From positions 2,666,001 through 2,730,000 of the forward strand of contig NZ_JAMLFW010000001.1 of assembly GCF_024256385.1 (NCBI RefSeq): a DNA stretch of 64,000 nt, written 5' to 3'. Positions within the stretch are counted from its first letter, which is position 1. Each line of letters starts with the position of its first letter. The notes under the pieces were generated by a model. That model was not told where the DNA came from. It worked only from the letters and a program-made list of their open reading frames with translations, and did not search any database. The position numbers were made by a program, and so were the translations under genes. This stretch comes from Anatilimnocola floriformis. GTDB lineage: Bacteria > Planctomycetota > Planctomycetia > Pirellulales > Pirellulaceae. Shown here in pieces: positions 5,366-45,850 of this stretch.

Positions 5366-8300
5366 ATGCCCAAATTCACCTGGCGGCTCGCGGCCCTTGT
5401 GCAAACGCTGGCCGATGAAACGCTCCTCGCCGAGTCACTCCTGTTTCCCGGCGTGTCGCTACTGCAAACCGATCTCGGCCGCTTGCGCAAAACGCTCGGC
5501 AAGCGGCTGCGCGCGCAAATCAAAAAACTACCGCCCGAAGAAGCCTGGCGCTGCCGCCTCGGTGAATTGCCGGAGGTAAAAGAGATCGCCATCGAAGTGC
5601 CTCCGATCCGCGGCGATCGTTATCGAACAAATCCGGTTACGCTCAAATTGCACTACGTCCAGTGGCAACACGGTCCCTTAACGGGCGTACCCGCCGCGGA
5701 CGCGGTGATCGCGTTTTTTCCCGCGCTGCAGATCGAGATTCTGGCGCCGAACGAAAAGGAACTCGCTGCGCAGCTCGAACCACAAATTCGCTCGGCCCTC
5801 TCGCGACAGGCCACGGCTTCGCACCTGCAGCGACTCGTACTGCTCGATCATCGGCGTTCACTGCAGCTGCGGCCGTTAAGCTTGCAAGTGAAACTGCCCA
5901 CGCTCAAGCAAGCTGCCGTGGAAAAAGAGAAAGCCGCCGCAAAGGAAATCTCCATTCTCAAGCAGGTCGCCTTCGACCTCACGCAGACTTGGACCAAGCG
6001 CGAACGCGAGAAAACCTACGAACGAACTAGCGAAGTGCAGCGATTGGCTGAAACGCTGGCCGGGCCGCTGCCGCGCAGCGTGCTCCTGGTTGGCAAGTCA
6101 GGAGTTGGAAAGACTGCCGTGGTCCGCGAGCTCGCGCGGCTCCGCGGTTCCCTGGGCCTCGCCGACCGGCAACTGTGGTCAACCAGCGGTTCGCGCATCG
6201 TCGCCGGCATGACCGGCTTCGGCATGTGGCAGGAACGTTGTCAGAAGCTACTCAAGGAAGCCGCCCGCACGCGGGCCGTCGTTCATCTCGATCATCTCGC
6301 TGAGTTGATCGAGGTCGGCAAGGGTGGCGGCAATCAGCAAGGCATTGCTTCGCTCCTCTGTCCTGCGATCGCGCGCGGCACGCTGCTCGCAATCGCTGAA
6401 TGTACGCCGCAGCAAATCGCTGCCATCGAGCGTGAAGATCCGCAGCTCCTCGAAGCCTTTGTGCAAATCGAAATCGCCGAGAGCACGCCGGAGCAGACCC
6501 GCAGCATCTTGCAACAAGTCGCCGGCAGTGGCTTGGAATCGGCAGCGCAAGTGATCGAGCCTGCTGCGCTCGGTGTGCTTGATCGCTTGCATCGACGCTA
6601 CGCGGCTTACAGCGCTGCGCCGGGTCGGCCACTCCGCTTCCTGCGCAACATGCTGGAAGATCGCGACGAAAAACACACGATCACCGCTTCGGAAGTGACA
6701 AAGGAGTTTTCGCAAGAAACGGGCCTGCCGCTGTTCATGCTCGACGACGCCGTGCCGCTCGATGTCGAAGCAACTCGCCGCTGGTTTCAGCAGCGCGTGA
6801 TCGGTCAGCCGCAGCCGGTCGATCTCGTCGTCGATCTCATCGCTGCCGTCAAAGCGGGCCTCGCCCGCGGCGGCAAACCGATCGCGTCAGTCCTCTTCAT
6901 CGGCCCGACCGGCGTCGGCAAAACCGAGATGGCCAAGTCGCTGGCGGAGTTTCTCTATCAAGATCCGCACCGCATGATTCGCTTCGACATGAGCGAATAT
7001 GCCCACGCACACGCCATCGAACGACTCATCGGCGGCACCTTTACGACGCAAGGTTTGCTCACGCAAAAGGTCCGCGATCAGCCATTCATGGTCGTGCTGC
7101 TCGACGAATTCGAGAAAGCTCATCCGCTGTTTTTCGATGTGTTACTGCAAGTCCTCGGCGAGGGACGTTTGACCGACGGCGCGGGCCGCGTCGCCGATTT
7201 CACGAGTACCGTTGTCATCATGACGTCGAATCTCGGCGCCGAATCGTTCCGCCAGGCCAACGTCGGCTTCGGCGGCGAGCGAGCGCTCGAACAACACGCC
7301 GAACGGCACTTCGAGCAGGAGGTGAAAAACTATCTGCGGCCTGAAATGTTCAACCGGCTCGATCGAATCGTCCCCTTCGCGCCGCTCGATCAGCGCACGA
7401 TCAACAGCATCGCCCAACGTGAGATCGAACGAGTCACAGCCCGTGATGGCATTCGCCTGCGCAATTTGAATCTCACCATCGAGCCGGGCGTCGTCGATCA
7501 GCTCGCCGCCAACGGATTTGACCCACGCTACGGCGCGCGGCCGCTCAAGCGCGCGATCGAACGGCAACTGGTTGCGCCACTGGCGGAACAGCTCACTCGT
7601 TACGCCGGCGATGTCATTATCGACAGCACGGTTAAAACCGGCGACGGCCAGCTGACGATCGAATCGGCAGCGCGGCCAGCCTTGAGTAAAGGTGCCTTCG
7701 GCGGAACTGCTGATAACAACACGCTGGCCATCGTGAACGACGTGGTCGATCTCCGCCGCAAGCTGCAACAGCTGCGGCAGAGCGGTTCGCTTTTGCAGGC
7801 CCGCAACGAGATCCACCGTCTGCGACAGGTTCAGAAGCAAGAGCGAAAGAAGGCTCGCAAGCGCGGCCACGAGCCGAAGTTCCAGTTCTCGCCGCAAGAC
7901 GCCAAGGCACTGCGGCAAGAAAAATTGCTGCAGCGCGTCGATAGCCTGACAGCCGATGTCTTTGCGCTGGAAGAAATGGCGTTGCAGGATTTGTACGCCG
8001 CTCGTCCGCTCTCAGCCGTGACGACCAGCGACACCCAGCAGGGCCTGGCCAAAGATCTGCGCGAACTGCTCTTTGATCTATATCTGCAGCAGGATGATCG
8101 GCCGTCGACGTTGACGCTGGTAATCACGGGCGAAGACATTTCGCACGTCTGCGAGCTTGGCCAGATCTATGCCAACCTGATCGAGTTGCGTGGGCCGCGG
8201 CCAGAACTCCATTGGCTGCGACTGCACAGCGCGCAGTTCACCGGCGAGCGCCGCAGCAAGATTTGGCCCGCCATGCAATTGCCGCACATCGTCGACACGC

Positions 8301-8740
8301 TCACCGAGAAGGGCGTGGTGGAGAAGCGTCCGGTACTTCTCGATGTGTGGGAGCCGACCCTGGCGGGAATTGCCGATCCACCGGACGAATGTATTGGGCT
8401 GGCGCTCGAAACGAAGCATGCTCACTCGATCTCGCTGCTGCAATCTGAAGGCGGCGCGCATCTTTTTGAAATGTCCGCGAACCGCCGACTGGTTTGCAAT
8501 GTCGAAGCTATACCGATGCCGTTGATTGGTTTCGAACCGCCACCCAACATCGGCCGCGTCGGCTCCTATGCCAATCTCCGCTGTCGTCGCCGGTATGCAA
8601 AGTACGACAAAGTCGTGATCGATCCGTATTTGAATCAGACTTTTCCCATCGTCGACAAACAGCTCGAGCCTGCGGTTGCCGCCGCGGCCGAAGCACACCT
8701 TGCCAATCGCATTTGGGCCTTGCTCGATCAATGGAACTGA
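5366..8740 (+). CDS. ClpA/B-like double AAA+ ATPase with release-factor-like C-terminus (gene 1 of trio)
   Basis: I use the ATG at 5366; in-frame TTG 5321 and ATG 5336 are possible, and none has a clear Shine-Dalgarno. The 1124-residue protein has a novel N-terminal domain (1-180), then D1 with Walker A GKSGVGKT (243-250), and D2 with GPTGVGKT (513-520) and Walker B LLDEFEKAH (about 578-586). There is no room for a ClpB M-domain. D1 Walker B reads HLDHL (Glu to His), and the position of the ERRF arginine-finger motif reads LLEAF. The D2 pore loop GYVG is replaced by TFTTQ. A VGF tripeptide (633-635) occupies the ClpP-loop position. Basic coiled coil (about 800-890) leads into a tail resembling a class I release factor, with no GGQ. 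It overlaps gene 2 by ten bases. Confidence 0.88.
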   Translation: MPKFTWRLAALVQTLADETLLAESLLFPGVSLLQTDLGRLRKTLGKRLRAQIKKLPPEEAWRCRLGELPEVKEIAIEVPPIRGDRYRTNPVTLKLHYVQWQHGPLTGVPAADAVIAFFPALQIEILAPNEKELAAQLEPQIRSALSRQATASHLQRLVLLDHRRSLQLRPLSLQVKLPTLKQAAVEKEKAAAKEISILKQVAFDLTQTWTKREREKTYERTSEVQRLAETLAGPLPRSVLLVGKSGVGKTAVVRELARLRGSLGLADRQLWSTSGSRIVAGMTGFGMWQERCQKLLKEAARTRAVVHLDHLAELIEVGKGGGNQQGIASLLCPAIARGTLLAIAECTPQQIAAIEREDPQLLEAFVQIEIAESTPEQTRSILQQVAGSGLESAAQVIEPAALGVLDRLHRRYAAYSAAPGRPLRFLRNMLEDRDEKHTITASEVTKEFSQETGLPLFMLDDAVPLDVEATRRWFQQRVIGQPQPVDLVVDLIAAVKAGLARGGKPIASVLFIGPTGVGKTEMAKSLAEFLYQDPHRMIRFDMSEYAHAHAIERLIGGTFTTQGLLTQKVRDQPFMVVLLDEFEKAHPLFFDVLLQVLGEGRLTDGAGRVADFTSTVVIMTSNLGAESFRQANVGFGGERALEQHAERHFEQEVKNYLRPEMFNRLDRIVPFAPLDQRTINSIAQREIERVTARDGIRLRNLNLTIEPGVVDQLAANGFDPRYGARPLKRAIERQLVAPLAEQLTRYAGDVIIDSTVKTGDGQLTIESAARPALSKGAFGGTADNNTLAIVNDVVDLRRKLQQLRQSGSLLQARNEIHRLRQVQKQERKKARKRGHEPKFQFSPQDAKALRQEKLLQRVDSLTADVFALEEMALQDLYAARPLSAVTTSDTQQGLAKDLRELLFDLYLQQDDRPSTLTLVITGEDISHVCELGQIYANLIELRGPRPELHWLRLHSAQFTGERRSKIWPAMQLPHIVDTLTEKGVVEKRPVLLDVWEPTLAGIADPPDECIGLALETKHAHSISLLQSEGGAHLFEMSANRRLVCNVEAIPMPLIGFEPPPNIGRVGSYANLRCRRRYAKYDKVVIDPYLNQTFPIVDKQLEPAVAAAAEAHLANRIWALLDQWN

Positions 8741-11700
8741 CACTGCCGATTTACATCGAGGTCCGCCGCGAAGGGGGCCGCCCGATCCATCACGTTCGCA
8801 CGTTGTTCATGCACGGGCCGCAGGCAGCCGATGCGCATCTGGGCCTGGCGATGGGCAAATTCAACAAACGGCTGAAAGAACAACTCGACGGCCTTGGTCG
8901 GCAGGATCGGCACGAAGACCTGATGCAAGCCGCGTTCTCGCCGCCGCTGCAATCGCGAGTGATCAAGCTCACCATCGAGTTGAAGCATCGCCAGGCGCGC
9001 GTCCGTTTCTTGTTCGCCACATTTGCCGCCCTCGAACGCCGCGTCGCCTTCACGCCATCGCTCCCAATGGTCTGGTTCGAATACGAAACCGACGCGCAGC
9101 TCGAAGCCGAAGCCACGCGAGCGATCCAGCATCACTATCGCGAATTGGAAAAGGTGCTCGGTCACGATGCCGAGGTTCGCCCCGAGGACGAAGCCATCCC
9201 CGGCCAAGCCTGGATTAGCACGGTCGACATCGAGGTAAACACACGCCCCTTCGATGAAAAGAAAATGGCTCGCGCCTTCGCCGCACTCCTCGACGACACG
9301 CGCGTCGATGGCGGCGTCGAACTGCAACGCGTCGGCCGTTGTCTCGATTGGCTCTATCCGGCTGAACTGCACCAGGCCGTTGGCCGCGATCGCGAGGTTT
9401 CTCAGCTGTACCATTTGCTCGATGGTCAGGACTGCCGACCAATCGTGCTCGTCGGCCCGCGGCTCGCCGGCAAAACCACCGTGCTGCACGAAACGGTTCG
9501 TCGACGCGTCGCGCGCCGCGGCAAACCCTACTCCGCCAAGCTCAACGTCTGGCTGTTATCGCCGCAGCGGCTCATCAGCGGCATGATGTATGTCGGCCAG
9601 TGGGAAGGTCGGCTGCAGGCGATTCTCAAAGTCGCTCGCAAGCAACGCCATGTGCTTTACTTCGACGATTTCCTCGGCTTGTATCGAGCAGGGATCAGTC
9701 GCGACGCCAGTCTGTGCGCAGCCGACGTCATCAAGCCATTCATCCAACGCCGCGAAGTGCGCGTGCTCGCCGAAATGACGCCCGAAGCCTGGCAAACGTT
9801 TTGTGAACGCGATCGCGGCCTGGCCGATCAGTTTCATGTGATACGCGTCGATGCGATGGGCGAGGAAGCGACGCGTCGCGTGATGATTCAAGTGCTGCGC
9901 AACTTAGAAGCGGAACATCATCTCAAGTTCAACCTCGATGCGCTGCCGTCAATGCTGCAGCTGCAGCAAGGCTACATTCGCGACGCCGCTTTCCCGGGCA
10001 AGAGCGCCGCCTTTGCGCGGCAACTCGCGCTGAAGATGCCCTCGCGCACGATTGCCCGCCGCGAAGTGTATGACGAGTTTCATCGCAAAACCGGCTTAGC
10101 TTTGTCGATTCTTGATGAACAGATTCAGCTCAATCGCAGCGAAGTGCTGAAGAACCTGCAACAACGCATGATCGGCCAGGAAGCAGCCGTTTCCGCTGCC
10201 GCCGACGTGGTGACCATCGCCAAGGCGCGCCTCGCCGATCGATCTCATCCGCTCGCGGTACTCCTCTTTCTCGGCCCGACCGGAGTGGGCAAGACGCAAT
10301 GCGCCAAGGTTCTCGCCGAGGTCATGTACAGCGATCCGGCCCGGCTGTTGCGATTCGATATGAATGAATACGCCTCGCCGTCGGCTGCGGCACAGTTGCT
10401 CGGCACACCGGGAGAGCCCGATGGTCTGCTGACATCGGCCGTTCGCCGTCAACCGTTTTCGATCGTGCTGCTCGATGAAATTGAAAAGGCGCATCCAGAT
10501 GTCTTCGACCTGCTGCTGCAAGTGACCGGCGAAGGGCGGCTGACCGATGCTTTGGGCCGGACTGCCGATTTTTCGAACACCGTGGTGGTGATGACCTCGA
10601 ATCTGGGAACGGCCCACGGCGGCCAAATCGGTCTCGCGAATAACCCGGCTTCGCGGCAGCACGTGTTCGTCAAAGCGGCCGAAAGCTTTTTCCGGCCGGA
10701 GTTTTTCAACCGCATCGATCGAGTGATTCCGTTCGAATCATTATCGCGCGACCAGATGCGGAACATCGCGCAGCTGTTGCTCGAAGATATTTTCCGCCGC
10801 GACGGCCTGGTGCGTCGCCGCTGCGCGCTCTGCGTGCATGAAGCCGCGATGGAGAGCATCGTCGATGCCGGCTATCACCCTCAGTTCGGCGCGCGAGCAC
10901 TGAAGCGAGCCATCGAACAACAGCTGATGCATCCCGTCGCGGCGAGCCTGTCGGGGGTGAACCCTGAGCTCCCCGCGGTCATCACCGTTTATCCCGCCCC
11001 CGAGGGTGTGACGGCTGCAGTGCAACCGCTGGGCAGCGTGCAAGCCAACGATTGTCATGCGTTCGATGATGCCGAGCCAGCCGAGAAGATCCGCCGCATC
11101 GCCGGGTTTCTCGATCGCGTGGAAGATGAACTCGAATCGCATCGCCCCGCCAGCAGCGGCGGTGGCCGAGGGCTTTCGGCGGAGCAGATTCGTTACTACG
11201 CCCTCAAGGAGCAACTGCAACAACTGCGCGAGATGCACCGCGACGTCAGCGAACTGGTTGCGAAAGCAGCCTCGGCTGGTCCGGTTTCGGCGACGACGCC
11301 ACGCATTGTTGGGCCCACCAAAGAGCTGACTCGCAATTACATGCGCCGCGTGCCGATCGGCAGTTTGTTGCGCGACTTCGCTTCAGCGCAGGATGTTCAC
11401 GATTATCTCACCGAAGCTGCCCAAAAACCAAAGCCTGAAGCAACTGCGGCCCGGTTGCTCGATCTGCGTTATGAAGCGGCCCATCTGCAAACCATGCTCG
11501 CGTCAGCCAGCGAGCCGCAGGATGTGCTGTTCTGGCTGAAGCCGCTGGTACGCATCAGCCGTCCTGCCTTGGTGCTGAAACTGCAAACTATTTTGAGTGT
11601 TTTCAAAGATGAGTTCGGATTCTCCGCGCGGATCGTTAGCGACAACCGCGCGGAAGGATTTGTAGCGCACCTGTCCGGTTCCGGAATCGGGCCGCTCGCC

Positions 11701-12063
11701 CGCGCCGAAGCTGGCATCCATATGTTCTGCGAACAAAAAGAAAACCTGATTCCCGTGCAGGTCTGGGTGCTGGCTTTCAGCGGCGACGCTGCCACGGCTG
11801 CCAAAGAGTTGCGTCAGCAACATGATGACGGGCTCGTCCAATTGCGGAGCGGTCAGGCAACGGCTGCCGATGATCCATTCCCGCTCGGCAACATCCTGCG
11901 CTTCTACGACGAAGCTGGGTCGACGATCGATCTGCGCAGCGGTCTGACGCAGCCGACGTTTCCGACCACGAAGGAATGGAAAACACTCCTGCTTGCCGGT
12001 TTGCCGCTACCGCCGGAACTCGCCGTACGGGCGGATGATCAAGAAGCGGAGGTGCAATCATGA
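8731..12063 (+). CDS. ClpA/B-like double AAA+ ATPase with release-factor-like C-terminus (gene 2 of trio)
   Basis: The ATG at 8731 lies inside the last codons of gene 1, so translation is probably coupled. The 1110-residue protein has an N-terminal domain of about 215 residues related in size to that of its neighbours. D1 Walker A is GPRLAGKT (242-249), Walker B YFDDF (Asp in place of Glu), and the arginine-finger site reads LADQF. D2 Walker A is GPTGVGKT (515-522), Walker B LDEIEKAH (581-588), arginine-finger site FNRID. The D2 pore loop is deleted (GTPGEPDG). An IGL tripeptide (633-635) matches the ClpA ClpP-docking loop. From about 912 on, the sequence tracks a release factor PCRF domain (SGSGIGPLARAEAGIHMF, 981-998) and the release factor's final strand (LRFYDEAGSTIDLRSG, 1056-1071), without GGQ. 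Confidence 0.88.
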   Translation: MELTLPIYIEVRREGGRPIHHVRTLFMHGPQAADAHLGLAMGKFNKRLKEQLDGLGRQDRHEDLMQAAFSPPLQSRVIKLTIELKHRQARVRFLFATFAALERRVAFTPSLPMVWFEYETDAQLEAEATRAIQHHYRELEKVLGHDAEVRPEDEAIPGQAWISTVDIEVNTRPFDEKKMARAFAALLDDTRVDGGVELQRVGRCLDWLYPAELHQAVGRDREVSQLYHLLDGQDCRPIVLVGPRLAGKTTVLHETVRRRVARRGKPYSAKLNVWLLSPQRLISGMMYVGQWEGRLQAILKVARKQRHVLYFDDFLGLYRAGISRDASLCAADVIKPFIQRREVRVLAEMTPEAWQTFCERDRGLADQFHVIRVDAMGEEATRRVMIQVLRNLEAEHHLKFNLDALPSMLQLQQGYIRDAAFPGKSAAFARQLALKMPSRTIARREVYDEFHRKTGLALSILDEQIQLNRSEVLKNLQQRMIGQEAAVSAAADVVTIAKARLADRSHPLAVLLFLGPTGVGKTQCAKVLAEVMYSDPARLLRFDMNEYASPSAAAQLLGTPGEPDGLLTSAVRRQPFSIVLLDEIEKAHPDVFDLLLQVTGEGRLTDALGRTADFSNTVVVMTSNLGTAHGGQIGLANNPASRQHVFVKAAESFFRPEFFNRIDRVIPFESLSRDQMRNIAQLLLEDIFRRDGLVRRRCALCVHEAAMESIVDAGYHPQFGARALKRAIEQQLMHPVAASLSGVNPELPAVITVYPAPEGVTAAVQPLGSVQANDCHAFDDAEPAEKIRRIAGFLDRVEDELESHRPASSGGGRGLSAEQIRYYALKEQLQQLREMHRDVSELVAKAASAGPVSATTPRIVGPTKELTRNYMRRVPIGSLLRDFASAQDVHDYLTEAAQKPKPEATAARLLDLRYEAAHLQTMLASASEPQDVLFWLKPLVRISRPALVLKLQTILSVFKDEFGFSARIVSDNRAEGFVAHLSGSGIGPLARAEAGIHMFCEQKENLIPVQVWVLAFSGDAATAAKELRQQHDDGLVQLRSGQATAADDPFPLGNILRFYDEAGSTIDLRSGLTQPTFPTTKEWKTLLLAGLPLPPELAVRADDQEAEVQS

Positions 12064-14333
12064 CGCAACCTTTTCCCGTTGTTGTCTGGCAAGACTCGCA
12101 GGGCGCTTTCACGGCCAGCGTGCTCGATGGTGCGCGGGCCGCTGCCGTCGACGTCAACGTGCCAGCCGCGCTGCTGCAGCTCAAGCGTTATCTGATCTGG
12201 AACTTTCGCCAAACGGGTGGCATGGGTTCGGCCGATTTCGCCGACCTGTCGCTGCGCGATCATCGCGTCCGCATCCGCGCCGAGTACAACACGGGGGACT
12301 ACGTTTATCCCGTCAGCCCGCCGCTGGAACTCCGAATCACTTGCGTTCACGGCAAGCGCGGCGACGGCGCGCTGCATTGCGTCATTCCGACACTCGGCAT
12401 TCGCTTGACCTATCAGCCGCAAGATCCGATCGAGGATCTCGTGAAAGAGGCGGTGCAGCAAGCTCTCGGCAAGCTCACGCCGCGCGATCTGTCGCGGCAT
12501 CTGATGCCCGGCGCATTCAGCTTGCACGCCGTCCACGTTCCCAATCAGCGCCAATCGATTCGCGAGAAACCCGAGCAATATGCCGCGCTCAGCAGCGTCG
12601 CCGAACGACTGGGTCAACGCGGCCGGGCCGGTCGTTGGCCACGGGCGTTGCTGCGCGATAAAGAAGTCCGGCAGGTCGCCGGACATTTGAAGGATGAGCG
12701 TGCGAGCCTGCTACTCGTCGGCGAGCGCGGCGGCGGCAAGTCGACCGTCCTCGTCGAAGCCATTCGTCTGTTGCAGCGGACGAATGTGAAAAAGCCCAGC
12801 GAAGAGCAAACCGAAGAAGAAGAGAAGAAGTCGACAGCCCTCCGCAACTTTTGGCTGACCAGCGGCGCGCGAATCATCGCCGGCATGAAGTACCTCGGCC
12901 AATGGGAGCAGCGTTGCGAACAAATGATCGCCGAGCTGGGCGAAAAGGGCGGACTGCTCTGCGTGGAAGACCTGCTCGAATTGGCGACAGTCGGCGGCGG
13001 TAAAGAAGGCGCAAACGTCGCGAACTTTCTGCATCCTTACGTCGAGCGCGGCGAACTGCGACTTGTAGCCGAAACGACGCCCGCCGAGCTCGACGCCTGC
13101 CGGCAGTTGCTGCCGGGGCTCGTCGATCAATTTCAGGTTATTCACATTCCCGAGTTTTCGCCCACTGACGGCCGCGCGCTGCTCGACGAGTTGCTGCGAA
13201 CCGGCGCTCGGCATCAGAAGTTGGAACTCGACGAAGGGTTGGCCGGGCTTGTTTATCGACTGTTCAAGCGGTTTCAACCGTATGCGGCGTTTCCCGGCCG
13301 GAGTGCCGCGTTCGTGCGGCACTTGCTGGACGACTCTGCCAAGGAACAGCGGACGAAGCTCACTCAGCACCACGTGCTCGCGCGGTTTCAGCGTGACACT
13401 GGTTTGCCGGAAGTGCTGCTGCGCGATGATCTGCCATTGCCGCACGAGGAAGTTCTCACGCGTTTCCGCGGCGAGGTTCTCGGCCAGGAAGCGGCTTGCG
13501 CCGCTGCTGCCGGAGTCGTCACCGCGCTCAAGAGTGGCTTGAATGACCCGAATCGTCCGCTCGGCGTGCTCCTCCTCTGCGGCCCGACCGGCGTCGGCAA
13601 AACCGAAATGGCCAAGGCCCTGTCGCGCTTCATTTTCGGCGCCGGCAACATGAAAGACCGGCTCGTTCGCCTCGATATGAGCGAATATGCCGGTTACGGC
13701 GCGGCCCAGCGGCTGTTTCAGAATGCCGATGGCCAGTTGAGCGAGTTCATCCAGCGGATTCGTCGTCAGCCGTTTGTCGTGGTCCTCTTCGACGAAATCG
13801 AAAAAGCCGCGCCGGAAGTTCTCGATGCATTGCTCGGTGTACTCGACGAAGGCCGCCTGACCGATCGCTTCGGCCGGACGACGACATTTCGCAGCGCGGT
13901 GATTGTGATGACGAGCAATATCGGCGCAGAACGGAGCGCCGCGGTCGGTTTCGATTCGACCGTCCAACCAGCCTTCGAGCGGATTGCCATGGGAACGTTT
14001 CGCCCGGAGTTCTACAACCGGATCGATTCGGTCATCGCCTTCCAGCCACTCTCGCGCGAGACGATCCGTTCCCTCGCCCGTCGCGAATTGGCTGCCATCG
14101 CCCAGCGCGAAGGGTTGGCCAAGAACGATCTCCGCCTCGAATGGAGCGACTCCCTCGTCGATCATCTCGCGGCCGCTGGTTACGACGCCCGCTATGGCGC
14201 CCGGCCGCTACATCGCGCGGTTGAACAGCTCATCATCGCGCCGCTCGCCAAGTGGCTCCTTGCCAATCCGACCGCGCGAGAACGGATCGTGCATGTCGAT
14301 CTGGCTGAGAACAATGAGATCGTGGTGTGGTAG
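12060..14333 (+). CDS. ClpA/B-like double AAA+ ATPase (gene 3 of trio)
   Basis: Start and stop of genes 2 and 3 overlap as ATGA, a standard coupling signal. The 757-residue protein has an N-terminal domain of about 160 residues, D1 Walker A GERGGGKS (221-228), an acidic insert (EEQTEEEEKK, 248-257), pore loop 1 of normal type (KYLG near 277-280), and a swapped Walker B, CVEDL, in place of Asp-Glu. The arginine-finger site reads LVDQF. D2 has GPTGVGKT (508-515), LFDEIEKAA (576-584) and FRPEFYNRID. The GYVG pore loop is shortened to NADGQ. A VGF tripeptide sits at 629-631. It ends soon after the D2 small domain and lacks the release-factor-like tail of its partners. A subunit of a mixed AAA+ ring is the natural inference. 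Confidence 0.88.
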   Translation: MTQPFPVVVWQDSQGAFTASVLDGARAAAVDVNVPAALLQLKRYLIWNFRQTGGMGSADFADLSLRDHRVRIRAEYNTGDYVYPVSPPLELRITCVHGKRGDGALHCVIPTLGIRLTYQPQDPIEDLVKEAVQQALGKLTPRDLSRHLMPGAFSLHAVHVPNQRQSIREKPEQYAALSSVAERLGQRGRAGRWPRALLRDKEVRQVAGHLKDERASLLLVGERGGGKSTVLVEAIRLLQRTNVKKPSEEQTEEEEKKSTALRNFWLTSGARIIAGMKYLGQWEQRCEQMIAELGEKGGLLCVEDLLELATVGGGKEGANVANFLHPYVERGELRLVAETTPAELDACRQLLPGLVDQFQVIHIPEFSPTDGRALLDELLRTGARHQKLELDEGLAGLVYRLFKRFQPYAAFPGRSAAFVRHLLDDSAKEQRTKLTQHHVLARFQRDTGLPEVLLRDDLPLPHEEVLTRFRGEVLGQEAACAAAAGVVTALKSGLNDPNRPLGVLLLCGPTGVGKTEMAKALSRFIFGAGNMKDRLVRLDMSEYAGYGAAQRLFQNADGQLSEFIQRIRRQPFVVVLFDEIEKAAPEVLDALLGVLDEGRLTDRFGRTTTFRSAVIVMTSNIGAERSAAVGFDSTVQPAFERIAMGTFRPEFYNRIDSVIAFQPLSRETIRSLARRELAAIAQREGLAKNDLRLEWSDSLVDHLAAAGYDARYGARPLHRAVEQLIIAPLAKWLLANPTARERIVHVDLAENNEIVVW

Positions 14334-19320: not shown

Positions 19321-21120
19321 ATGGACCTACGCTTCATTCCTCGCGTGTTCGTGGCCGGAACTCTATTCCTGCTGGCCGCAGACGCCACGCTTCGCGGCGT
19401 CGAGCCGCCACCGGCCAATCGGGGTTCCAAGCTCACTCAGGAAAGAGTTCGCGAGGCGCTGCAGCGAGAAGTCTATGGCTTGAGTGAGGATCGCGAGAAA
19501 CTGCTGCAGGCTGCGGCCAATGATGAAGCTGGCGCACAACTGCCGCAGTGGTATCTGGGTCGCGTGCAAGGTGCCGATGGCAATTGGAAAGCGGCCGACG
19601 CCAAGCCAACGGCGCGCGAGGGGCAACTCTATCGCGAGTACGCCGCGCTCCGCAGCACGAAAGCCGACGACGCGGCGAGTCACAAGTTGCTCGCCGATTA
19701 GTGTGATAAGAACGGCTTGAAGCAGCAGGAGCGAGCGCATTTGCTCCGTTCCTTGGCCCTCAATGCTAACCAAGCTGGATTACGACAACGGCTCGATCAG
19801 GTGCGAGTTGGCAATCAGTGGGTTGAGCGTCAAGCGGTCGCTCGCGAACAAGCGCGGAGGCGAGAACTCAAGGCAAACTATGAGCGTTGGTCTCCGATCA
19901 TCGCGAAGATCGCACCTCAGTTGACCTCGCTCACGGAAGAAAAGCGTCAGGCTGCCGTCAACCAGATTTTGGCGATTAACGACACGAGTGCGCTGCCTGC
20001 TTTGTTCGATGCGTTGGGCTCACGCGGTGAAGACGAGCAGTTACTGATTCTTGCTGTGTGCAAGAAACTGCCCGATGTCTCGTCGACGGAACTATTGGCC
20101 TGGTTGGCGGCCGAGTCGACTTCACTCAAAGTGCGCGAGACGGCAGCCGAACTTCTGCAGCCGCGCGAGATGACCGATTACGTGCCCCTGATGATTTCGG
20201 CGATGTATTCGCCGATCTCCACGCAGTTTGAGGCCCAGGTATTACCGAACGGGCAGACGGTAATGCGCAAGGCTTATTGGCGCGAAGGTATGGATCATCA
20301 CGAACTGCTGGTTACTGATACTTCGTTCAGAATGAATATCCCGGCGGGGCAGTACTTAGGACCTTCACGCAACCTCGCTCCGGTGTTCTTCAATCAGCAT
20401 CGCATGGAAAATTTAATCGAAGTTGATAACGCGCGCACCGAGGTCGCTGTCGCTGAAAAGAACCGCCTGACTGACGAAAGAAACCGCCGTATCGCGGATG
20501 CGCTCACCAAGTCCACCGGCGAAAAGTTCGCTGCGCAGCCGGACGTATGGTGGAAGTGGTGGCTCGATCTGAATGAATGGACCTTGCCGGACGGAAAGGG
20601 CATGTATTCGTATTACCAGTACAATCGGCGGGAAGATTGGACCGATTTTAAGTGGCCGCGTAAGACTTCTTGCCTCAATGCCGGCACGCCGATTTGGACC
20701 GATCAAGGGCCGGTTGCTGTCGAACGTTTGAAAATTGGCGACTTAGTGCTGTCACGCGATGTCGAGAGTGGTGAGCTTGCATACAAGCCGGTGCTCCTCA
20801 CCACCGTGCGTGAAAAACGACAGCTTACGGAACTAATGGTTGGCGCGGAAAAGATTCAAGCGACCGGCGGTCACTTGTTTTGGGTTTCAGGCACAGGCTG
20901 GGTGCGTACAAAAGAATTGCAGGCGAGTGATGTGCTCCACACAGCGACGAACCCCGTGAACTTGACTGCTGCCCAGCCGGGCATTGTGGCCGAAACATAC
21001 AACTTGGTGGTCGCAGATTTTCACACGTACTTCGTCGGCGAGCACAAGTTGCTGTCGCACGACAACACCGTGCGCCGGCCTACCAATGTTGTCGTGCCGG
21101 GCTTGAAGCCAGAGCAATAG
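19321..21120 (+). pseudogene. HINT-domain protein paralogue 2, interrupted by in-frame amber codon
   Basis: The frame opens at ATG 19321 with a signal peptide (VFVAGTLFLLAAD) and the block 'RVREALQREVYGL'. It is stopped by TAG at 19699-19701. The same frame continues without another stop to 21120 and keeps the whole paralogous sequence. At the stop, paralogues 1 and 3 read ADWC, whereas this copy reads AD-stop-C, so one G-to-A change (TGG to TAG) explains it. The C-terminal HINT domain is intact (SCLNAGTPIWT ... GHLFWVSGTGWVR ... VLSHDN) with the tail TVRRPTNVVVPGLKPEQ. A TTG at 19717 could in principle restart translation, without a signal peptide. Read-through or a sequencing error are alternatives. 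Confidence 0.8.
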
Positions 21121-21175: not shown

Positions 21176-21203
21176 TTGCAGTCGATACTAGATAGCGTAT
21201 GCT
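21176..21203 (+). promoter_or_regulatory. putative sigma70-type promoter of HINT gene 3
   Basis: TTGCAG (21176-21181), a 16-base spacer and TATGCT (21198-21203) stand about 90 bases before the start codon. The following bases repeat the TATGCTGACC seen before paralogue 1, which suggests that the promoter was duplicated with the gene. Paralogue 2 lacks it and may rely on read-through from gene 1. Confidence 0.4.
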
Positions 21204-21291
21204 GACCGTTGCTGCGGCCAAGGTGAGGCCACTACCTTTCATCCGCTGCAGCAGACTCTTGGGACAGGGGCTTGTGATCAGGAGGCGGGTG

Positions 21292-23124
21292 ATGAAGACA
21301 CGCTTAGGGCAGCTGGGCGGGTTAGTTCCAATTTTGTTTCTTGCTTCGTCAGTCTTCGTAGCAGGCGAAGTACGGGCGGCTGAAGCCGTTGGCGCGAGCA
21401 AAGCCGAAGAAGCGGTTCGCGAAGCATTGCAGCGCGAAGTCTACGGTTTGCTCGCAGATCGCGATTCGCTGTTGAGTTCGGCCATCGATGCCGCGCCGGA
21501 TAACTCGGCAGCGCGCTGGCACCAGGGCTATCTGCGCGGCACGAATGGAGAGTGGGTTGTCGGTGGTGAACCAACCGACAAAGAGCATCAGGAATTGCTC
21601 GCGCTGTATGGAAAGCTGCGAGCCGCGGCGGCCAACACGGCGGCAGGCCAGATCGAAATGGCCGATTGGTGCGCACGCAAAGGCTTGAAGGAGCGCGAAC
21701 GCATCCACCTGATGCGTGTCTGCGAGTTGTCTCCCGACAACATCACGGCTCGGCAACGCCTAGGCTTTGTCCGCGTCGGTCGCGATTGGGTCAGCAAGGC
21801 CGACATTGCTTTCGCGCAGAACCGCGAGGCAGCTCAGCAAAAGGCGGCCACTCATTGGAATCCGATCGTCACTAAGCTCGCGGCTCAGCTTGCGTCACCC
21901 GATGCTCAAAAACGGGTCGCAGCGGTTCTGCAAATCAAAGAAATTCGCGACGCCAGCGCGCTGCCAACGTTGCAGCAACTGGTAGGACGCCGCGGCGAGG
22001 ATGAAGAATTGCTCGTCGTTGAAGTTGCTTCGAAGATCGATGAAACCGACGCGACGGTTGCCCTGGCTCGGCATGCGGTGATGTCGCCATCGCTGCTCGT
22101 GCGACAGACGGCAGCCAAGTTGCTGACGTCGCGCGATCGCGAAGACTTCGTGCCGCTGCTCCTCTCGGCGATGTACTCGCCGGTCGTTTCGCGAATCTCC
22201 GAGTTCGCTCTGCCGAATGGTCAAATCGGTTATCGCCACGCCTTCATGCGTGAAGGGGCCGATCACAACGAAGTGCTGGTGCTTAATACGTCGTATCGCC
22301 GGATCGGTCCCAACAACACGGCGCCGAACGGCAATCAATTGCTGTCGCTCAATCGAGCCGCGCGCGATGCGCAGATGGAAGAAGGTGTGGCCGCTCAAAA
22401 TCAGTACACAGCGGAGTTGAATGACCGGCTCTCCTGGGTGCTGAACACTGCCACCGATGCCAAGTTGCCCGCTGAGCCAGACAAGTGGTGGAAATGGTGG
22501 GCCGACGAAAATGAAGTCTTCATGCCAGGCTCGAAGCAGAATTACACGGTGAGCCGGTCCCGCAGCGTGGATATCGTCGAGATCGATCCGAAGACTCTGA
22601 TCCCGCCGAAGCCAAGCAATATGGTGCTCCTCAGCGTGGAAGTTCTGCGGCCGAGCATTTACACTCCCGCCCCCAGCGATTGCCTGGTTGCTGGTACACC
22701 AGTTTGGACCGATCGCGGTACGGTTGCGATCGAGAGCATGCTCGCTGGCGATATGGTTTTGTCGCGCGATATTGAGACCGGCGAACTCTCCTACAAAGCG
22801 GTGGTGCGCACGACCACTCGTCCTCCAGGGCCGATCATCCGGATCAAAGCGGGCGACGAATTCATCGAATGCAGCAGCGGGCATCCTTTGTGGGTTTCCG
22901 GCAACGGCTGGGTGAAGTCGCGCAATCTGCAGACCGGCATGGTGCTGCATGCGGCCAGCGGCCCGGTGCGTGTGTCGGAGGTGAGCGAAGTAAAAGCCGC
23001 GCCGACATTCAATCTGATTGTGGCAGACAACAACACGTACTTCGTCGGCAATCAGAAGGTGCTTTCGCACGACAACACGCTGCGGCGGCCCACCAATGCC
23101 ATTGTGCCTGGGCTGAAGCCGTAA
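21292..23124 (+). CDS. exported HEAT-like protein with C-terminal HINT domain (paralogue 3)
   Basis: AGGAGG precedes the ATG at 21292, which starts a signal peptide (LVPILFLASSVFVAGEVRA). The 610-residue protein aligns along its whole length with paralogue 1: the 'AVREALQREVYGL' block, helical repeats, a Trp-rich 'PDKWWKWWADENEVF' segment, then the HINT domain from Cys464 (DCLVAGTPVWT ... SSGHPLWVSGNGWVK ... NLIVADNNTYFVG ... VLSHDN). The tail after the terminal Asn is TLRRPTNAIVPGLKP. The linker between repeats and HINT is the most variable part. Both ends of the self-cleavage module (Cys1, and His-Asp-Asn followed by Thr) are present, so cleavage is chemically possible. The CPBP protease gene starts 12 bases downstream. 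Confidence 0.85.
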   Translation: MKTRLGQLGGLVPILFLASSVFVAGEVRAAEAVGASKAEEAVREALQREVYGLLADRDSLLSSAIDAAPDNSAARWHQGYLRGTNGEWVVGGEPTDKEHQELLALYGKLRAAAANTAAGQIEMADWCARKGLKERERIHLMRVCELSPDNITARQRLGFVRVGRDWVSKADIAFAQNREAAQQKAATHWNPIVTKLAAQLASPDAQKRVAAVLQIKEIRDASALPTLQQLVGRRGEDEELLVVEVASKIDETDATVALARHAVMSPSLLVRQTAAKLLTSRDREDFVPLLLSAMYSPVVSRISEFALPNGQIGYRHAFMREGADHNEVLVLNTSYRRIGPNNTAPNGNQLLSLNRAARDAQMEEGVAAQNQYTAELNDRLSWVLNTATDAKLPAEPDKWWKWWADENEVFMPGSKQNYTVSRSRSVDIVEIDPKTLIPPKPSNMVLLSVEVLRPSIYTPAPSDCLVAGTPVWTDRGTVAIESMLAGDMVLSRDIETGELSYKAVVRTTTRPPGPIIRIKAGDEFIECSSGHPLWVSGNGWVKSRNLQTGMVLHAASGPVRVSEVSEVKAAPTFNLIVADNNTYFVGNQKVLSHDNTLRRPTNAIVPGLKP

Positions 23125-30744: not shown

Positions 30745-30827
30745 GTTGAAATTTGTCTTTCGCCGCAAATCGCATTATTCTGAGCAATCCTGCCAAACTT
30801 CTCGCCGTTTGCCATTTCACGAGGTCC

Positions 30828-33989
<3,162 letters not shown>

Positions 33990-38609: not shown

Positions 38610-40526
38610 ATGGACGACGATTATAAAATTCATTTGAATTTTCTAGCGATCGACGAATTACCGACATTTCGCGTATTTCGCAAACACCGACTAGAAGGGG
38701 AACCCCGACCAAGTCCAGACACTGCATCTTATTCTTTTGCGATCGAAGGCAATTCGGAGCAGCGATCAACTTATTGGGTGCGCTGGGATGCGACAGTTGG
38801 ATATGCAGAGTATTGGGCCGAACCGTCCGAAAATAATGATCTGACCCGCGCAGCACTCTTTCAATCGCTGGCCTCCGCCGCTGCGGCATCACTGGCACCG
38901 ACAGAGTACGTTAGATCGAGTGGGTTCATCGACGAATTGTCGTTCATAATGCGTCGGCACAAGGAAGGAAACGAGGTGCTGGTCGTCCAGCCGTATTTTT
39001 TAAGAGAGGCACAGCAATTCGGCCTCTTGGCCGGATTTCACTTCCGCAAAGCGGATGACTGCGCCTTTTCAAGGCGTGTTCAGCAATTGAGCCTGAGCCT
39101 TGATCGGCAATATCGTCGCAATATCGATTTCTATTTTGATTGGGCGTCCCGTGTTCAGGCCTTTCTAAACGAGCGCGAGCAAGTATTTTCCACGTTAAAA
39201 TTGCCAGGAAACACTAGAAGTATATCTCTGACTCTTGACTTCAAGCCATTGCCTGCACGCCGCCTTCGCTCGCGCCTGTACGTATTTGCCAATGATCGTG
39301 AATCCAAGAGCCAGTTCTCAGGACTTCGAGATTTTGGGCCATTAAAGCCGCTAGATCAGCCTCCTAACCTCCTGTTCGTATTTCGAGAACAAGATCGACC
39401 GGCCGCGAGAACACTAGCTGCCGGATTGAAGGGATCCAAGACGCGGGAGCGATTTAGCTTCCCTGGCTTCCAGTCACTTTTCAAATCGGCCCTAAATATC
39501 GATTCGAAACCAGTGATTTTGCCCGACGTTTCGCAAGAGTCGATGGTTTCGGCATTGAGCGAAGTGCGATCTAGGCGGGCATTGGACCCATCAATACTAC
39601 CTGTCGTTGTCCTTCCAGATGGTGACGACAACGGGTATCTGGCGCACAAGGCGGGATTTACTAACGCCGGAATTGCAACGCAGGTTTGCACACTTCCGAT
39701 AATCCTCGACGACAACGCGCTGAAGTGGGCGATTGCCAACATCGCTCTGCAGGTATTTTGCAAGGCGGGAGGATTGCCATGGAAAGTTCGGCCATCATCA
39801 GAACCTACGTTAATCGTAGGGATTAGTCAGTCGCACAAGATTCGGAAAAGCGACGACGGAAGAAGCATTGTTGACAAATATTTCGCGTTCACGGTGATGA
39901 CCGATAACAGCGGATTATTTCAAAACATTCAAGTTCTGGGCGAAGCTGGCGACAAGACGGATTATTTGGCTCAGCTTAATCAGAACCTCTCCACTATTCT
40001 CGCGACAGAATCACAACGGTTCTCGCGTGTTGTCGTTCACACGTCATTTAAGCTTAAGCGCGAAGAGATTAACGCAATTCAAACTACAGTTGCAAAGGCA
40101 AGCCAAAAATCGGTCGGAGATTGTCGCTTTGCAGTTGTGAAAGTAAATCACAAATGTCGCTTCTTTGGTACAAACCGACGGGTGAATAGTCTCGTCCCCT
40201 ACGAAGGCACTATCGTTCGGCTTGGAGGCGGCGAATATCTGTCGTGGTTCGAAGGAATATTTCCTGACAAGCCGACTGTGAATCGGCGGTACTCAGGGCC
40301 GTCTCACCTTCAGTTTTTGCGTGTTTCCGATGACAAATCGCTTTCTGACAATGAATTGCTTCAGGACCTCGTGAATCTGTCGGGTGCCAATTGGAGAGGG
40401 TTCAATGCCAAGAGCGCGCCTGTTTCAGTATTCTATTGCCACCTTGTTGCCGATGTTGTTCATAATTTTCACGACTTAGGACTGCCGCTTCCAGAAGTCC
40501 AAGTGTTTCGCCCGTGGTTTCTATGA
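38610..40526 (+). CDS. catalytically inactive prokaryotic Argonaute (MID-PIWI with APAZ/N-L1-L2-like N-terminus)
   Basis: AGGA precedes ATG 38610. Residues about 252-395 are a MID domain with the 5'-phosphate pocket set: H346-K347, Q358 and K385 (YLAHK, TQVCTLPII, NIALQVFCKAGGLPWK). Residues about 396-638 are PIWI, but the DEDX site is gone: VGISQS has Ser406 for the first Asp, and VVVHTSFK has no Asp at the RDG position. Residues 1-250 lack an obvious PAZ; 'RRVQQLSLSLDRQYRRNIDFYFD' resembles the APAZ/L1-L2 region of SPARSA/SPARTA partners. At 638 residues it is longer than short pAgos and shorter than most long ones. Codons are AT-richer than in neighbours. It forms an operon with the SIR2 gene ten bases downstream and is a guide-directed sensor by inference. 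Confidence 0.85.
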   Translation: MDDDYKIHLNFLAIDELPTFRVFRKHRLEGEPRPSPDTASYSFAIEGNSEQRSTYWVRWDATVGYAEYWAEPSENNDLTRAALFQSLASAAAASLAPTEYVRSSGFIDELSFIMRRHKEGNEVLVVQPYFLREAQQFGLLAGFHFRKADDCAFSRRVQQLSLSLDRQYRRNIDFYFDWASRVQAFLNEREQVFSTLKLPGNTRSISLTLDFKPLPARRLRSRLYVFANDRESKSQFSGLRDFGPLKPLDQPPNLLFVFREQDRPAARTLAAGLKGSKTRERFSFPGFQSLFKSALNIDSKPVILPDVSQESMVSALSEVRSRRALDPSILPVVVLPDGDDNGYLAHKAGFTNAGIATQVCTLPIILDDNALKWAIANIALQVFCKAGGLPWKVRPSSEPTLIVGISQSHKIRKSDDGRSIVDKYFAFTVMTDNSGLFQNIQVLGEAGDKTDYLAQLNQNLSTILATESQRFSRVVVHTSFKLKREEINAIQTTVAKASQKSVGDCRFAVVKVNHKCRFFGTNRRVNSLVPYEGTIVRLGGGEYLSWFEGIFPDKPTVNRRYSGPSHLQFLRVSDDKSLSDNELLQDLVNLSGANWRGFNAKSAPVSVFYCHLVADVVHNFHDLGLPLPEVQVFRPWFL

Positions 40527-40536
40527 TCGTCTTACC

Positions 40537-41622
40537 ATGAGTCGTTCGTCCGACATAATATTGCTACTGGGAGCCGGCGCCAGCGTTGAGGCCGGGATCC
40601 CGGCTTCCGCCACGATGATCGATAAAATCGAGTCCTTGCTGGCAGTCAATGATGAATGGCAGGAGTATCGTGAACTGTATCATCATGTGAAGAGCGCTCT
40701 TTATTTTTCGGCAGGAATCAAGGGAAGATTCAATCTCGACGTGTCGTACAACATTGAAGTGATGGTAAACGCGCTGTACGAGTTGGAAAGGAACGAAGAG
40801 CATCCACTATACCCATTCATTGCATCATGGAACTCTCGTTTTGTAGGTCTTGCGGGGCCGGCTTTCGAGCGAATCAAGAAATTCCGAAAGGTCATTTTGC
40901 GCGAACTTAAGAAATGGATGTGCCCGGAGAATACTGCCCAAGGAGACTACTTCCGCGGACTCTCGCATCTTCAGTCAGTACTGACTTATCCGCTACGAAT
41001 CTTCTCGTTAAATTATGATCTTTGTGTAGAACGCCTTGAGCGCGAAGGCACTAAGATCGAGGCCGGATTCCCCGGCCATGGGCCAGACGCTGCTTGGGAT
41101 TGGGAGCGATTTGAAGGGGGAGACTCCGGATCAAACCAACCGCCACAGATTTTGCTGTATAAACTGCACGGCTCAATCGACTGGAAACGGGATACGAATC
41201 AGAATCTCTATCGTGTGGAGCAGATTGAGAATGTCGAACCAAATAGGATGGAAATAATCTTCGGCCGTGATTTTAAGCTCGAAGCTGCTGATCCGTACTT
41301 ATTCTATGCTTACGAGTTCCGGCGACATTCGTTGCTCGCGCGCCTGATAGTAACTATTGGCTACAGCTTTGGGGATTGGCATATTAACAAAATGCTCGTT
41401 CAGGCGATGCGCGAGGATGGCACTCGCAAGATTATGGTTGTGTCGCGAGTTCAAAACGCACAAGATGCCGAAACCAAGAAGAAAGAGATCGCGGATCGCC
41501 TTAAGTTGACAGACGAAAGAATCATTGTCGTCGAAGGCTCCGCGAAAACTTTTCTCGAGTCTGCTGATCTTGGGAAAGTAGTCGTTGGAAGTGTGCCGCA
41601 AGGCGCAGACGAGCCGTTTTAA
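40537..41622 (+). CDS. SIR2-domain effector paired with Argonaute
   Basis: Starts ten bases after the Argonaute stop. The 361-residue protein is a single SIR2 domain: NAD-binding GAGAS (12-16) with 'EAGIP', catalytic Asn159 in SLNYD, His211 in KLHGSIDW, and 'IVTIGYSFGDWH' (272-282). Known pAgo-linked SIR2 proteins deplete NAD+ after target recognition, killing the infected cell. In SPARSA the SIR2 protein carries the APAZ domain; here the chain ends soon after SIR2, so APAZ is absent from it. No membrane segment. NADase activity and partnership with the Argonaute are inferred from motifs and gene order. Confidence 0.88.
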   Translation: MSRSSDIILLLGAGASVEAGIPASATMIDKIESLLAVNDEWQEYRELYHHVKSALYFSAGIKGRFNLDVSYNIEVMVNALYELERNEEHPLYPFIASWNSRFVGLAGPAFERIKKFRKVILRELKKWMCPENTAQGDYFRGLSHLQSVLTYPLRIFSLNYDLCVERLEREGTKIEAGFPGHGPDAAWDWERFEGGDSGSNQPPQILLYKLHGSIDWKRDTNQNLYRVEQIENVEPNRMEIIFGRDFKLEAADPYLFYAYEFRRHSLLARLIVTIGYSFGDWHINKMLVQAMREDGTRKIMVVSRVQNAQDAETKKKEIADRLKLTDERIIVVEGSAKTFLESADLGKVVVGSVPQGADEPF

Positions 41623-45782: not shown

Positions 45783-45850
45783 AGTCGTGTCACACGGCTG
45801 CGTACTTGGTGGAGTATGGCAATTTCCTCGTATGCCTGATGAAGTGCACC

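Follow-up and report, generated by a model that had tools for sequence, protein, structure and literature searches.

Three co-inherited HSP100-type ATPases of Anatilimnocola floriformis, two with release-factor-like tails, as candidate subunits of one heteromeric machine

Introduction

Why would a bacterium keep three different HSP100-type ATPases side by side, and why would two of them end in a part that resembles a translation release factor? These questions are raised by three consecutive genes, here called g1, g2 and g3 (together the trio), in the genome of Anatilimnocola floriformis (8.9 Mb). The genes lie in a stretch of 64,000 nucleotides, positions 2,666,001-2,730,000 of contig NZ_JAMLFW010000001.1, which we call the window; positions of trio genes and their domains are window coordinates on the forward (+) strand. 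To our knowledge, the HSP100 unfoldases described so far are all homohexamers, release factors are all proteins of translation termination or rescue, and no HSP100 protein has a release-factor part. The reading that we put forward, with about as much confidence as doubt, is that the trio provides the subunits of one heteromeric HSP100 machine, with release-factor arms directed to the ribosome or to a release-factor partner. That g1, g2 and g3 form a heteromeric ring is probable from their sequences and inheritance, and a mixed hexamer would be its most likely form; whether the arms bring the machine to the ribosome or to a release-factor partner we regard as evenly balanced.

Gene and domain organization

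The genes g1 (5366..8740, ATG start, 1124 amino acids), g2 (8731..12063, ATG, 1110 amino acids) and g3 (12060..14333, ATG, 757 amino acids) were delimited from open reading frames (ORFs) and Pfam matches. The first two overlap by 10 bases (8731-8740) and the last two by 4 bases (12060-12063). Each encodes an N-terminal domain, a first AAA+ module that has lost catalytic residues (a dead D1) and a second, active one (D2), after which g1 and g2 run on into a release-factor-like tail that g3 is without. Pfam finds AAA_2 and ClpB_D2-small in all three proteins, with weaker AAA-type matches over the first module; since this module was also found in the alignments of g1, g2 and g3, the proteins have the two-module plan of class 1 HSP100 enzymes. 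Clp_N is missing from the list of their Pfam families. Their scores stay below the NCBIfam equivalog cut-offs, with 305-346 bits against 1232 for ClpB and 252-331 bits against 993 for ClpA. The trio is thus HSP100 by its rings but falls outside ClpA, ClpB and ClpC. The host genome has seven AAA_2 matches above 100 bits; three are the trio, and the other four, located elsewhere, are taken as ordinary Clp proteins.

The initial annotation had described three consecutive overlapping genes, each for a two-module HSP100/Clp-type ATPase with an N-terminal domain other than Clp_N. The ORF coordinates confirm the overlaps, Pfam and alignment confirm the modules, and the list of Pfam families agrees with the statement on the N-terminal domain. 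The annotation had missed that D1 is dead, that D2 has lost its pore loop, and that there are a HicB-like N-terminal domain and release-factor tails.

The ATPase rings

Ring motifs were located by alignment, and residues were counted over 63 genomes for each subunit, with nine Clp proteins as controls. D1 of g1 (6080..6307) comprises a Walker A motif (6080-6124), a pore motif (6206-6229) and a degenerate Walker B motif (HLDH, 6278-6307). The corresponding regions of g2 (9442..9681) and g3 (12708..12983) contain Walker A, the pore motifs GMMYVGQW and GMKYLGQW, and the degenerate Walker B motifs YFDD and CVED, respectively. The Walker A lysine of D1 is present in 63/63 g1, 61/63 g2 and 62/63 g3 proteins. 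The catalytic glutamate of Walker B and the arginine pair, which all nine Clp controls possess, are found in 0/63 proteins of each subunit, a single arginine being left in 6 g1 and 5 g2 proteins. At the pore position an aromatic residue is found in all 63 g3 (Tyr/Phe/Trp) and in 55 g2 proteins (Tyr/Phe), and in g1 a Phe or Tyr follows one position later in 57 of the 63.

D2 of g1 (6902..7552) contains Walker A (6902-6925), Walker B (7097-7120), a VGF tripeptide of the ClpP-binding type (within 7256-7276), an arginine finger (7349-7366) and sensor 2 (7529-7552); the site where a GYVG pore loop would be expected (7019-7066) is without it. The same arrangement, with Walker A and B, arginine finger and sensor 2 present and GYVG missing, is seen in D2 of g2 (10273..10908, tripeptide IGL within 10621-10641) and of g3 (13581..14216, VGF within 13938-13958). 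Walker A Lys, Walker B Asp-Glu, sensor 1, arginine finger and sensor 2 are each conserved in 63/63 proteins per subunit. The GYVG valine column is a gap in 63/63 proteins of each subunit; the nine controls all keep both Tyr and Val. These alignments show that D1 keeps its nucleotide-binding loop and aromatic pore motif but neither the glutamate for catalysis nor the pair of arginine fingers, and that D2 retains all catalytic residues.

The tripeptide after D2 sensor 1 has the form hydrophobic-Gly-Phe/Leu, and its glycine is conserved in 61/63 g1, 63/63 g2 and 63/63 g3 proteins, as well as in 6/6 of the single-gene relatives described below. In three divergent genomes (L247, L249, L250) the tripeptide is present in 3/3 g1, 2/3 g2 and 3/3 g3 proteins. 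It aligns with the FGF of four controls which we take to be of ClpC type and is absent from four presumed ClpB-type controls; one other control has AGL. In ClpC such tripeptide loops dock ClpP.

The missing GYVG loop could also mean that the trio is a remodelling AAA+ system of another kind, ClpV-like or linked to defence, with the tails as mere scaffolds. The patchy distribution would suit such a system, as would the AAA+ matches that PADLOC reports, for example to DolB and PDC-M37B. PADLOC gives AAA+ matches only, so that we rejected a known defence system as a candidate. The stronger of these matches lie over the D2 ATPase region, and the ClpV NCBIfam score of g1 is 243 against a cut-off of 885. 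In addition, a survey of the genes beside 43 trio loci of 32 genomes and six single-gene loci revealed no recurrent secretion or defence gene in the neighbour groups listed. We consider this explanation highly improbable.

Release-factor-like tails of g1 and g2

The g1 and g2 proteins extend about 370-390 residues beyond D2, where g3 ends, and the release-factor-like part accounts for about 340 of these residues in g1 and about 290 in g2. The g1 tail (7721..8737) was delimited by profile, AlphaFold2, Foldseek, VIA and motif positions, and its inner limits, taken from the model, are approximate: domain 1 at about 7721-8089, domain 2 at about 8093-8521 and domain 4 at about 8573-8737, with domain 3, which carries the GGQ motif in release factors, missing. 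The g2 tail (11188..12060, limits approximate) follows from profile, alignment of relatives and motif positions, with a domain-2 motif at 11662-11727 and a domain-4 motif (RFY...DLRSG) at 11893-11943.

Single-sequence Pfam searches of the host g1 and g2 tails returned no release-factor family (PCRF), and an own-genome search likewise gave no such match for them. Pfam PCRF does match the g1 protein of one relative (E 0.016) and the single-gene protein L047 (E 1e-12). The tails became recognizable by profile comparison with solved structures. A profile of 42 g1 tails matched release factor 2 (RF2) with E 2e-6 and release factor 1 (RF1) with E 9e-4, the best stretches, in different rows, covering domain 1 with the start of domain 2, domain 2, and domain 4. 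A profile of 39 g2 tails matched RF2 with E 8e-4 over domains 1-2, and domain 4 of g2 is known by motif alignment only. The AlphaFold2 model of the host g1 tail has a mean predicted local distance difference test score (pLDDT) of 87.5 and a predicted template-modelling score (pTM) of 0.80. With this model as Foldseek query, the best 23 rows are all release factors (best E 5e-7). VIA superimposed the g1 tail model on RF2 with Z 16.5 and a root-mean-square deviation (rmsd) of 7.4 over 263 residues, and the domain 2/4 part with Z 13.0 and rmsd 2.7 over 140 residues; unrelated VIA rows, which are designed helical bundles over the coiled coil, reach Z 11.2.

Seven g1 and seven g2 tails were aligned with the host genome's own RF1 and RF2. 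Domain 3 with its GGQ motif is absent from 7/7 g1 and 7/7 g2 tails, and the spacing between the domain-2 and domain-4 motifs in the host tails, about 40 residues in g1 and 55 in g2, is too short to hold it. The domain-4 motif is retained in most aligned tails as R-x-Y...D, and in g2 as D-x-R-x-G. Over 42 rows of g1 tails the sequence G-x-H is invariant, and the preceding Glu and the R-x-Y are nearly so. The profiles, the alignment and, for g1, the model show that g1 and g2 end in a class-I release-factor fold made of domains 1, 2 and 4 and devoid of the GGQ domain.

The N-terminal domain of g3

The N-terminal domain of g3 (12060..12539) has an AlphaFold2 model with pLDDT 86.8, in which a beta-beta-beta-alpha pattern occurs twice. 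VIA aligned it with the N-domain of HicB (6g1c) at Z 9.4 and rmsd 2.3 over 81 residues, which is a modest score. Foldseek with the same model gave no significant match (best E 0.058), and a profile of the domain matched HicB weakly (E 0.3). We consider the domain modestly HicB-like, by predicted fold only. An assignment as the GGQ domain of RF1/RF2 was rejected because those rows (Z 4.7-6.0 over 53 residues) score below the HicB rows; they are taken to reflect a shared small alpha/beta arrangement.

Co-occurrence of the three subunits

The distribution of the trio was followed with a profile built from the N-domain and D1 of 12 members; in genomes of the host family, Pirellulaceae, trio matches score at least 202 bits and all others at most 154. 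Among 241 genomes of this family there are 20 carriers, 19 with exactly three matches and one (G136) with two, in an assembly that is 84% complete and split into 660 contigs. In a phylum sample of 392 genomes, 21 of the 24 carriers at 200 bits or more have three matches, and the exceptions (G588 with two, G731 with one, G734 with two) are all fragmented assemblies of 530 to 1330 contigs. In an order sample of 396 genomes, seven family carriers included, 14 genomes pass E 1e-46 and eight of these have three matches. Of the other six, G262 has one match, on a contig of 4875 bases, and G028 has two in a decaying operon (L042), in which the N-terminal part of g1 is followed by about 7 kb of other reading frames, the C-terminal part of g2 and g3 in pieces. 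All three genes were found adjacent in G498 (two matches) and G426 (one), and G360 and G497 have one match each.

A scan of one genome per species across 84,980 species yielded 74 loci. By record title these belong mostly to Planctomycetota and their families, and they also include Acidobacteria, Verrucomicrobia, one Sericytochromatia bin and a few Proteobacteria or Deltaproteobacteria. Among the carriers are the named isolates Zavarzinella formosa DSM 19928, Sulfidibacter corallicola M133 and Neorhodopirellula pilleata Pla100. Whole-genome searches of 29 scan genomes gave exactly three matches in 24, scattered sets included; the remaining genomes have two (G932), one (G927, G928) or four (G929, G930). 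That three matches stand for one gene of each class was verified for the genes fetched. Carriers with fewer than three matches in the family, phylum and 29-genome counts are fragmented assemblies or divergent lineages and, G360 and G497 aside, a lone trio subunit was seen only with a fragmented assembly, a decayed operon or an over-strict threshold. Plasmid carriage is unsupported: a tblastn search with g2 hit 27 plasmid records, each at less than 80% query coverage, and in the eight rows listed identity is 30.6-31.9%, with a Clp ATPase wherever there is an annotation.

Gene linkage and co-inheritance

Linkage was assessed for 63 complete, non-redundant main-lineage sets, whose genes were classed by subunit models. 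Sets were called linked, by hand, if the genes lie on one strand with neighbours within about 2 kb. Genomes with incomplete sets (22 of 93), five with the single-gene form only and the broken g2 of G767 were left out; the L183 set was kept although its g2 consists of two frames, the state of the L185 and L211 sets, at contig ends, was set to unknown, and the divergent L247, L249 and L250 were excluded from the residue counts and the clade test. The genes are linked in 39 sets, in the order g1-g2-g3, scattered in 22 and undecided in 2. The tree requires at least 11 changes between the linked and scattered states. In G020, a single contig of 9.6 Mb, the three genes lie at 2.8, 3.9 and 5.7 Mb. 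The trio thus outlasts repeated break-up of the operon. Since scattered sets retain all three genes, the scatter argues against a need for the operon and not against a complex. Junctions were examined in 33 loci with closed ORFs of all three classes above 800 bits, taking the longest-ORF starts. A 4-base overlap recurs at g1/g2 in 19/33 and at g2/g3 in 6/33 of these loci, and both junctions have a gap of at most 50 nucleotides, overlaps counted, in 25/33.

Each subunit forms one clade over the 63 genomes, with FastTree support values of 0.948, 0.952 and 0.99; the Clp controls were not one clade, and the tree was rooted at its midpoint. The subunit distance matrices correlate at 0.958-0.969, where 1000 permutations reach at most 0.256; the 22 scattered sets by themselves give 0.987-0.988. 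Shared species history alone would also produce a correlation, so that the match shows joint inheritance and not contact. Taken together, the data support one complex of three ancient paralogues.

The same data bear on the view that the three proteins form separate homohexamers, which have distinct tasks in a single pathway and for this reason are retained as a set. Scattering in 22/63 sets would be compatible with this, each D2 has its own complete active site including the arginine finger, and the single-gene relatives are presumably homo-oligomers. What speaks against independent rings is that carriers with fewer than three matches in the family, phylum and 29-genome counts are fragmented or divergent, that translational overlaps recur in many lineages, and that D1 has changed in subunit-specific ways, as expected of a ring with fixed order. 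Separate homohexamers seem unlikely to us.

The initial annotation had proposed a three-subunit set produced at a fixed ratio, suggestive of a hetero-oligomeric ring; it had named conserved three-gene synteny as a check, and scattering, or individual presence of the genes in relatives, as observations that would speak against it. A three-subunit unit gains support from near-strict co-occurrence (19/20 and 21/24 carriers, 24/29 genomes), the subunit clades and the matching distance matrices. The synteny holds in part, in the 39/63 linked sets and not in the 22/63 scattered ones; scattering did occur, in sets that keep all three genes, and genes present singly do exist in relatives but are of another architecture.

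Single-gene relatives and history

In the single-gene form, too, D1 is dead and D2 lacks GYVG, and the tail is RF2-like but here includes domain 3; L047 matches RF2 with E 1e-12. In 6/6 aligned proteins of this form the GGQ motif is replaced, and the loop corresponding to the PxT/SPF motif is also shortened or replaced. HEAT repeats occupy the N-terminus of 4/6 single-gene relatives read, and none were seen in the other two. The form occurs at 900 bits or more in 24/392 phylum genomes. A further 16 genomes without trio matches score 504-655 bits, a range that overlaps with that of trio genes. Five proteins of this class were read (L309, L310, L311, L313 and L314; L312 was dropped as a spurious frame). 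They begin with a hydrophobic segment (mean hydropathy 1.5-2.4 across 19 residues), by which they are probably membrane-anchored, and have no GYVG, the tripeptide and a tail too short for domain 3. The simplest history would be a single fusion of an HSP100 protein with RF2, in which the release factor died and from which one line became three genes.

Proposed mechanism and points against it

From this anatomy and co-occurrence we infer the following roles for the ring, the ribosome and ClpP. D2 would be the motor ring and D1 the gripping ring. Through its tails the machine would bind to the ribosomal A site or to a release-factor partner, the peptide not being released, and the motor would then pull on, dismantle or clear the stalled complex; the tripeptides may pass an unfolded chain to ClpP. 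The step from the arms to the ribosome has the ancestry of the tail and its retained fold as its sole evidence. A more specific form of this proposal, which we offer tentatively, is a hetero-hexamer of fixed order in which the GGQ-less RF2-type arms act as A-site decoys and D2 pulls apart a stalled ribosome complex or draws out the nascent chain, perhaps handing it to ClpP.

A number of observations weigh against a heteromeric machine acting at the ribosome. The trio is dispensable, since 221 of the 241 family genomes have no match of trio strength. For a motor that threads its substrate, a D2 ring without GYVG is unusual. With L247, L249 and L250 added to the tree no subunit is monophyletic, and the g1 protein of L249 falls with the g2 proteins. 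As to the tails, their Foldseek template-modelling scores (TM-scores) to release factors, normalized by the query, are low (0.21-0.37 for g1), because the domains are placed differently, and PspA, a coiled-coil protein, appears in the g1-tail profile list with E 2.5e-4, so that a coiled coil may account for some of the signal over domain 1. The PxT/SPF loop is shortened or replaced in the aligned tails; with the stop-codon motif lost besides GGQ, docking to the A site may also be lost. The neighbour survey shows no translation gene that repeatedly accompanies the trio, its largest groups covering 4/32 genomes, and no gene recurs across lineages beside the single-gene relatives, where groups are confined to one family. 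Links to ClpP and to ribosome rescue were sought in 40 genomes, 20 carriers and 20 non-carriers, of which 33 belong to the host family (13 carriers) and seven, all carriers, to other families. Two strong ClpP copies are present in 40/40 genomes, with or without the trio, and transfer-messenger RNA (tmRNA) scores above the cut-off in 39/40. No rescue factor is visibly replaced, and the sample does not support replacement of tmRNA or RqcH by the trio.

RqcH (NFACT_N) is clear in the seven other-family genomes and weak in the 33 host-family genomes, carriers or not; it tracks the family in this sample, so that effects of family and trio are inseparable. The genome that has no tmRNA above the cut-off (G115) is 99% complete in 260 contigs, and its gene may be divergent, permuted or unassembled. 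Because the strong ClpP pair occurs equally in carriers and non-carriers (40/40), a trio-specific ClpP is likewise unsupported. Extra weak ClpP-family matches (67-120 bits) were found in 4/20 carriers (G023, G100, G138, G079) and in 0/20 non-carriers.

Several of these observations would fit a heteromeric HSP100 unfoldase, or ClpP-linked protease, that has no role at the ribosome and whose reused release-factor fold serves as an arm for substrates or adaptors where ClpB/ClpC have their middle domain. Such an arm could lose both GGQ and PxT/SPF and keep its fold residues, as the tails have done; the tripeptide loops are kept (61, 63 and 63 of 63), ClpP is always available, with extra weak matches in carriers only (4/20 against 0/20), and no translation gene is linked. 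It would leave unexplained why a release-factor fold is kept in three architectures, the trio and the two single-gene forms, and why G-x-H is invariant and the Glu near-invariant in 42 g1 rows, unless these residues serve folding only. We regard an arm of this kind as possible rather than probable. If a machine directed to the ribosome or to a release-factor partner is nevertheless correct, the joining of HSP100 and release factor over three paralogues, retained as a set in several phyla, would amount to a new machine of protein quality control. The trio would make testable whether bacteria have a motor that acts directly on stalled ribosomes, and with its three fixed subunits one could study, in a natural example, how the order of subunits in an AAA+ ring separates gripping and hydrolysis.

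Neighbouring genes and other features of the window

The trio is preceded by a gene for a Gfo/Idh/MocA oxidoreductase, on its own strand, and followed by a convergent gene for a protein with lactonase-type propeller and phosphoesterase matches. A conserved operon partner was rejected, since no neighbour group in the survey exceeds four genomes and most represent stretches shared inside one family. Sigma-54 activators (NtrC-like) are found beside trio genes in four genomes (G051, G054, G079 and G594; positions L147:14875-16275, L153:2895-4427, L161:5568-6950 and L163:10854-12272), in three of them upstream of the trio gene and on its strand, which might point to control by stress. Neither a HicA partner nor a DNA-binding part of HicB type appears in the neighbour groups listed; neither was searched for directly.

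Elsewhere in the window, all on the forward strand, are a 638-residue Piwi-domain protein (38610-40526, PF02171 E 6e-24) that is a candidate prokaryotic Argonaute, with the next gene at 40537-41622, two tandem PT-HINT (pretoxin Hint) proteins (19717-21120 and 21199-23124), a 1207-residue protein kinase (45644-49267) and a PSCyt1/PSD1 planctomycete cytochrome-type protein (30753-33989).

Comparison with known systems

The initial annotation knew of no described system with this composition, and none was found here: the full-text literature searched, which excludes most subscription journals, describes no HSP100-release-factor fusion, no such trio and no three-subunit HSP100. A survey of release factors was built on the peptidyl-hydrolase (GGQ) domain, and 'Clp' is absent from its main text (PMC6514570); tails without GGQ could escape a survey of that kind. 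Likewise, 'release factor' is absent from the main text of a paper on NTP-dependent conflict systems (PMC7159879), and the sections consulted of a review on rescue pathways contain no ClpB, AAA or unfoldase (PMC8012679).

The trio shares with ClpC, ClpA and ClpB the two AAA+ modules, the D2 catalytic set and ClpB_D2-small, and with the ClpC-type controls the tripeptide. It differs from them in having no Clp_N, a dead D1, a D2 without GYVG, three obligate paralogues and release-factor tails. Similar to RF2 and RF1, the tails of g1 and g2 have domains 1, 2 and 4 by profile, model and alignment, whereas the GGQ domain 3 and the PxT/SPF motif are absent and the fold is joined to an HSP100 protein; in the single-gene relatives GGQ is replaced. 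The HicB antitoxin resembles the g3 N-domain in fold, with a weak sequence match (E 0.3), and no HicA partner turned up beside the trio, HicA not having been searched for directly. Paralogous subunits kept together are also found in heteromeric AAA+ rings such as Rpt1-6, Mcm2-7, Pex1/6 and the FtsH types of chloroplasts; unlike the trio, none of these is HSP100.

Release-factor relatives without catalysis have been described before. Pelota is a paralogue of eRF1 without GGQ. According to the parts consulted, the bacterial baeRF-1 families, which are archaeo-eukaryotic release factors of RNase H fold, lack the catalytic glutamine and are probably inactive, and insertion into the A site was suggested by the authors (PMC6514570). 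They resemble the trio in being non-catalytic release-factor relatives but belong to a different fold class, and no HSP100 fusion is described for them in those parts. Closest in design is eukaryotic ribosome splitting by Pelota/Dom34 with Hbs1 and ABCE1, as outlined in the review sections available (PMC8012679), where a non-catalytic release-factor paralogue is likewise combined with an NTPase motor. The families are unrelated, however, and in the trio, whose function is predicted, the motor is covalently joined to the arm and is of HSP100 type; by this analogy a similar design would have been reached independently. If the proposed role is true, bacteria would have arrived with the trio, on their own, at an equivalent of Pelota plus Cdc48/ABCE1, and the trio would found a superfamily of HSP100-release-factor proteins that also has single-gene forms, both soluble and anchored in the membrane.

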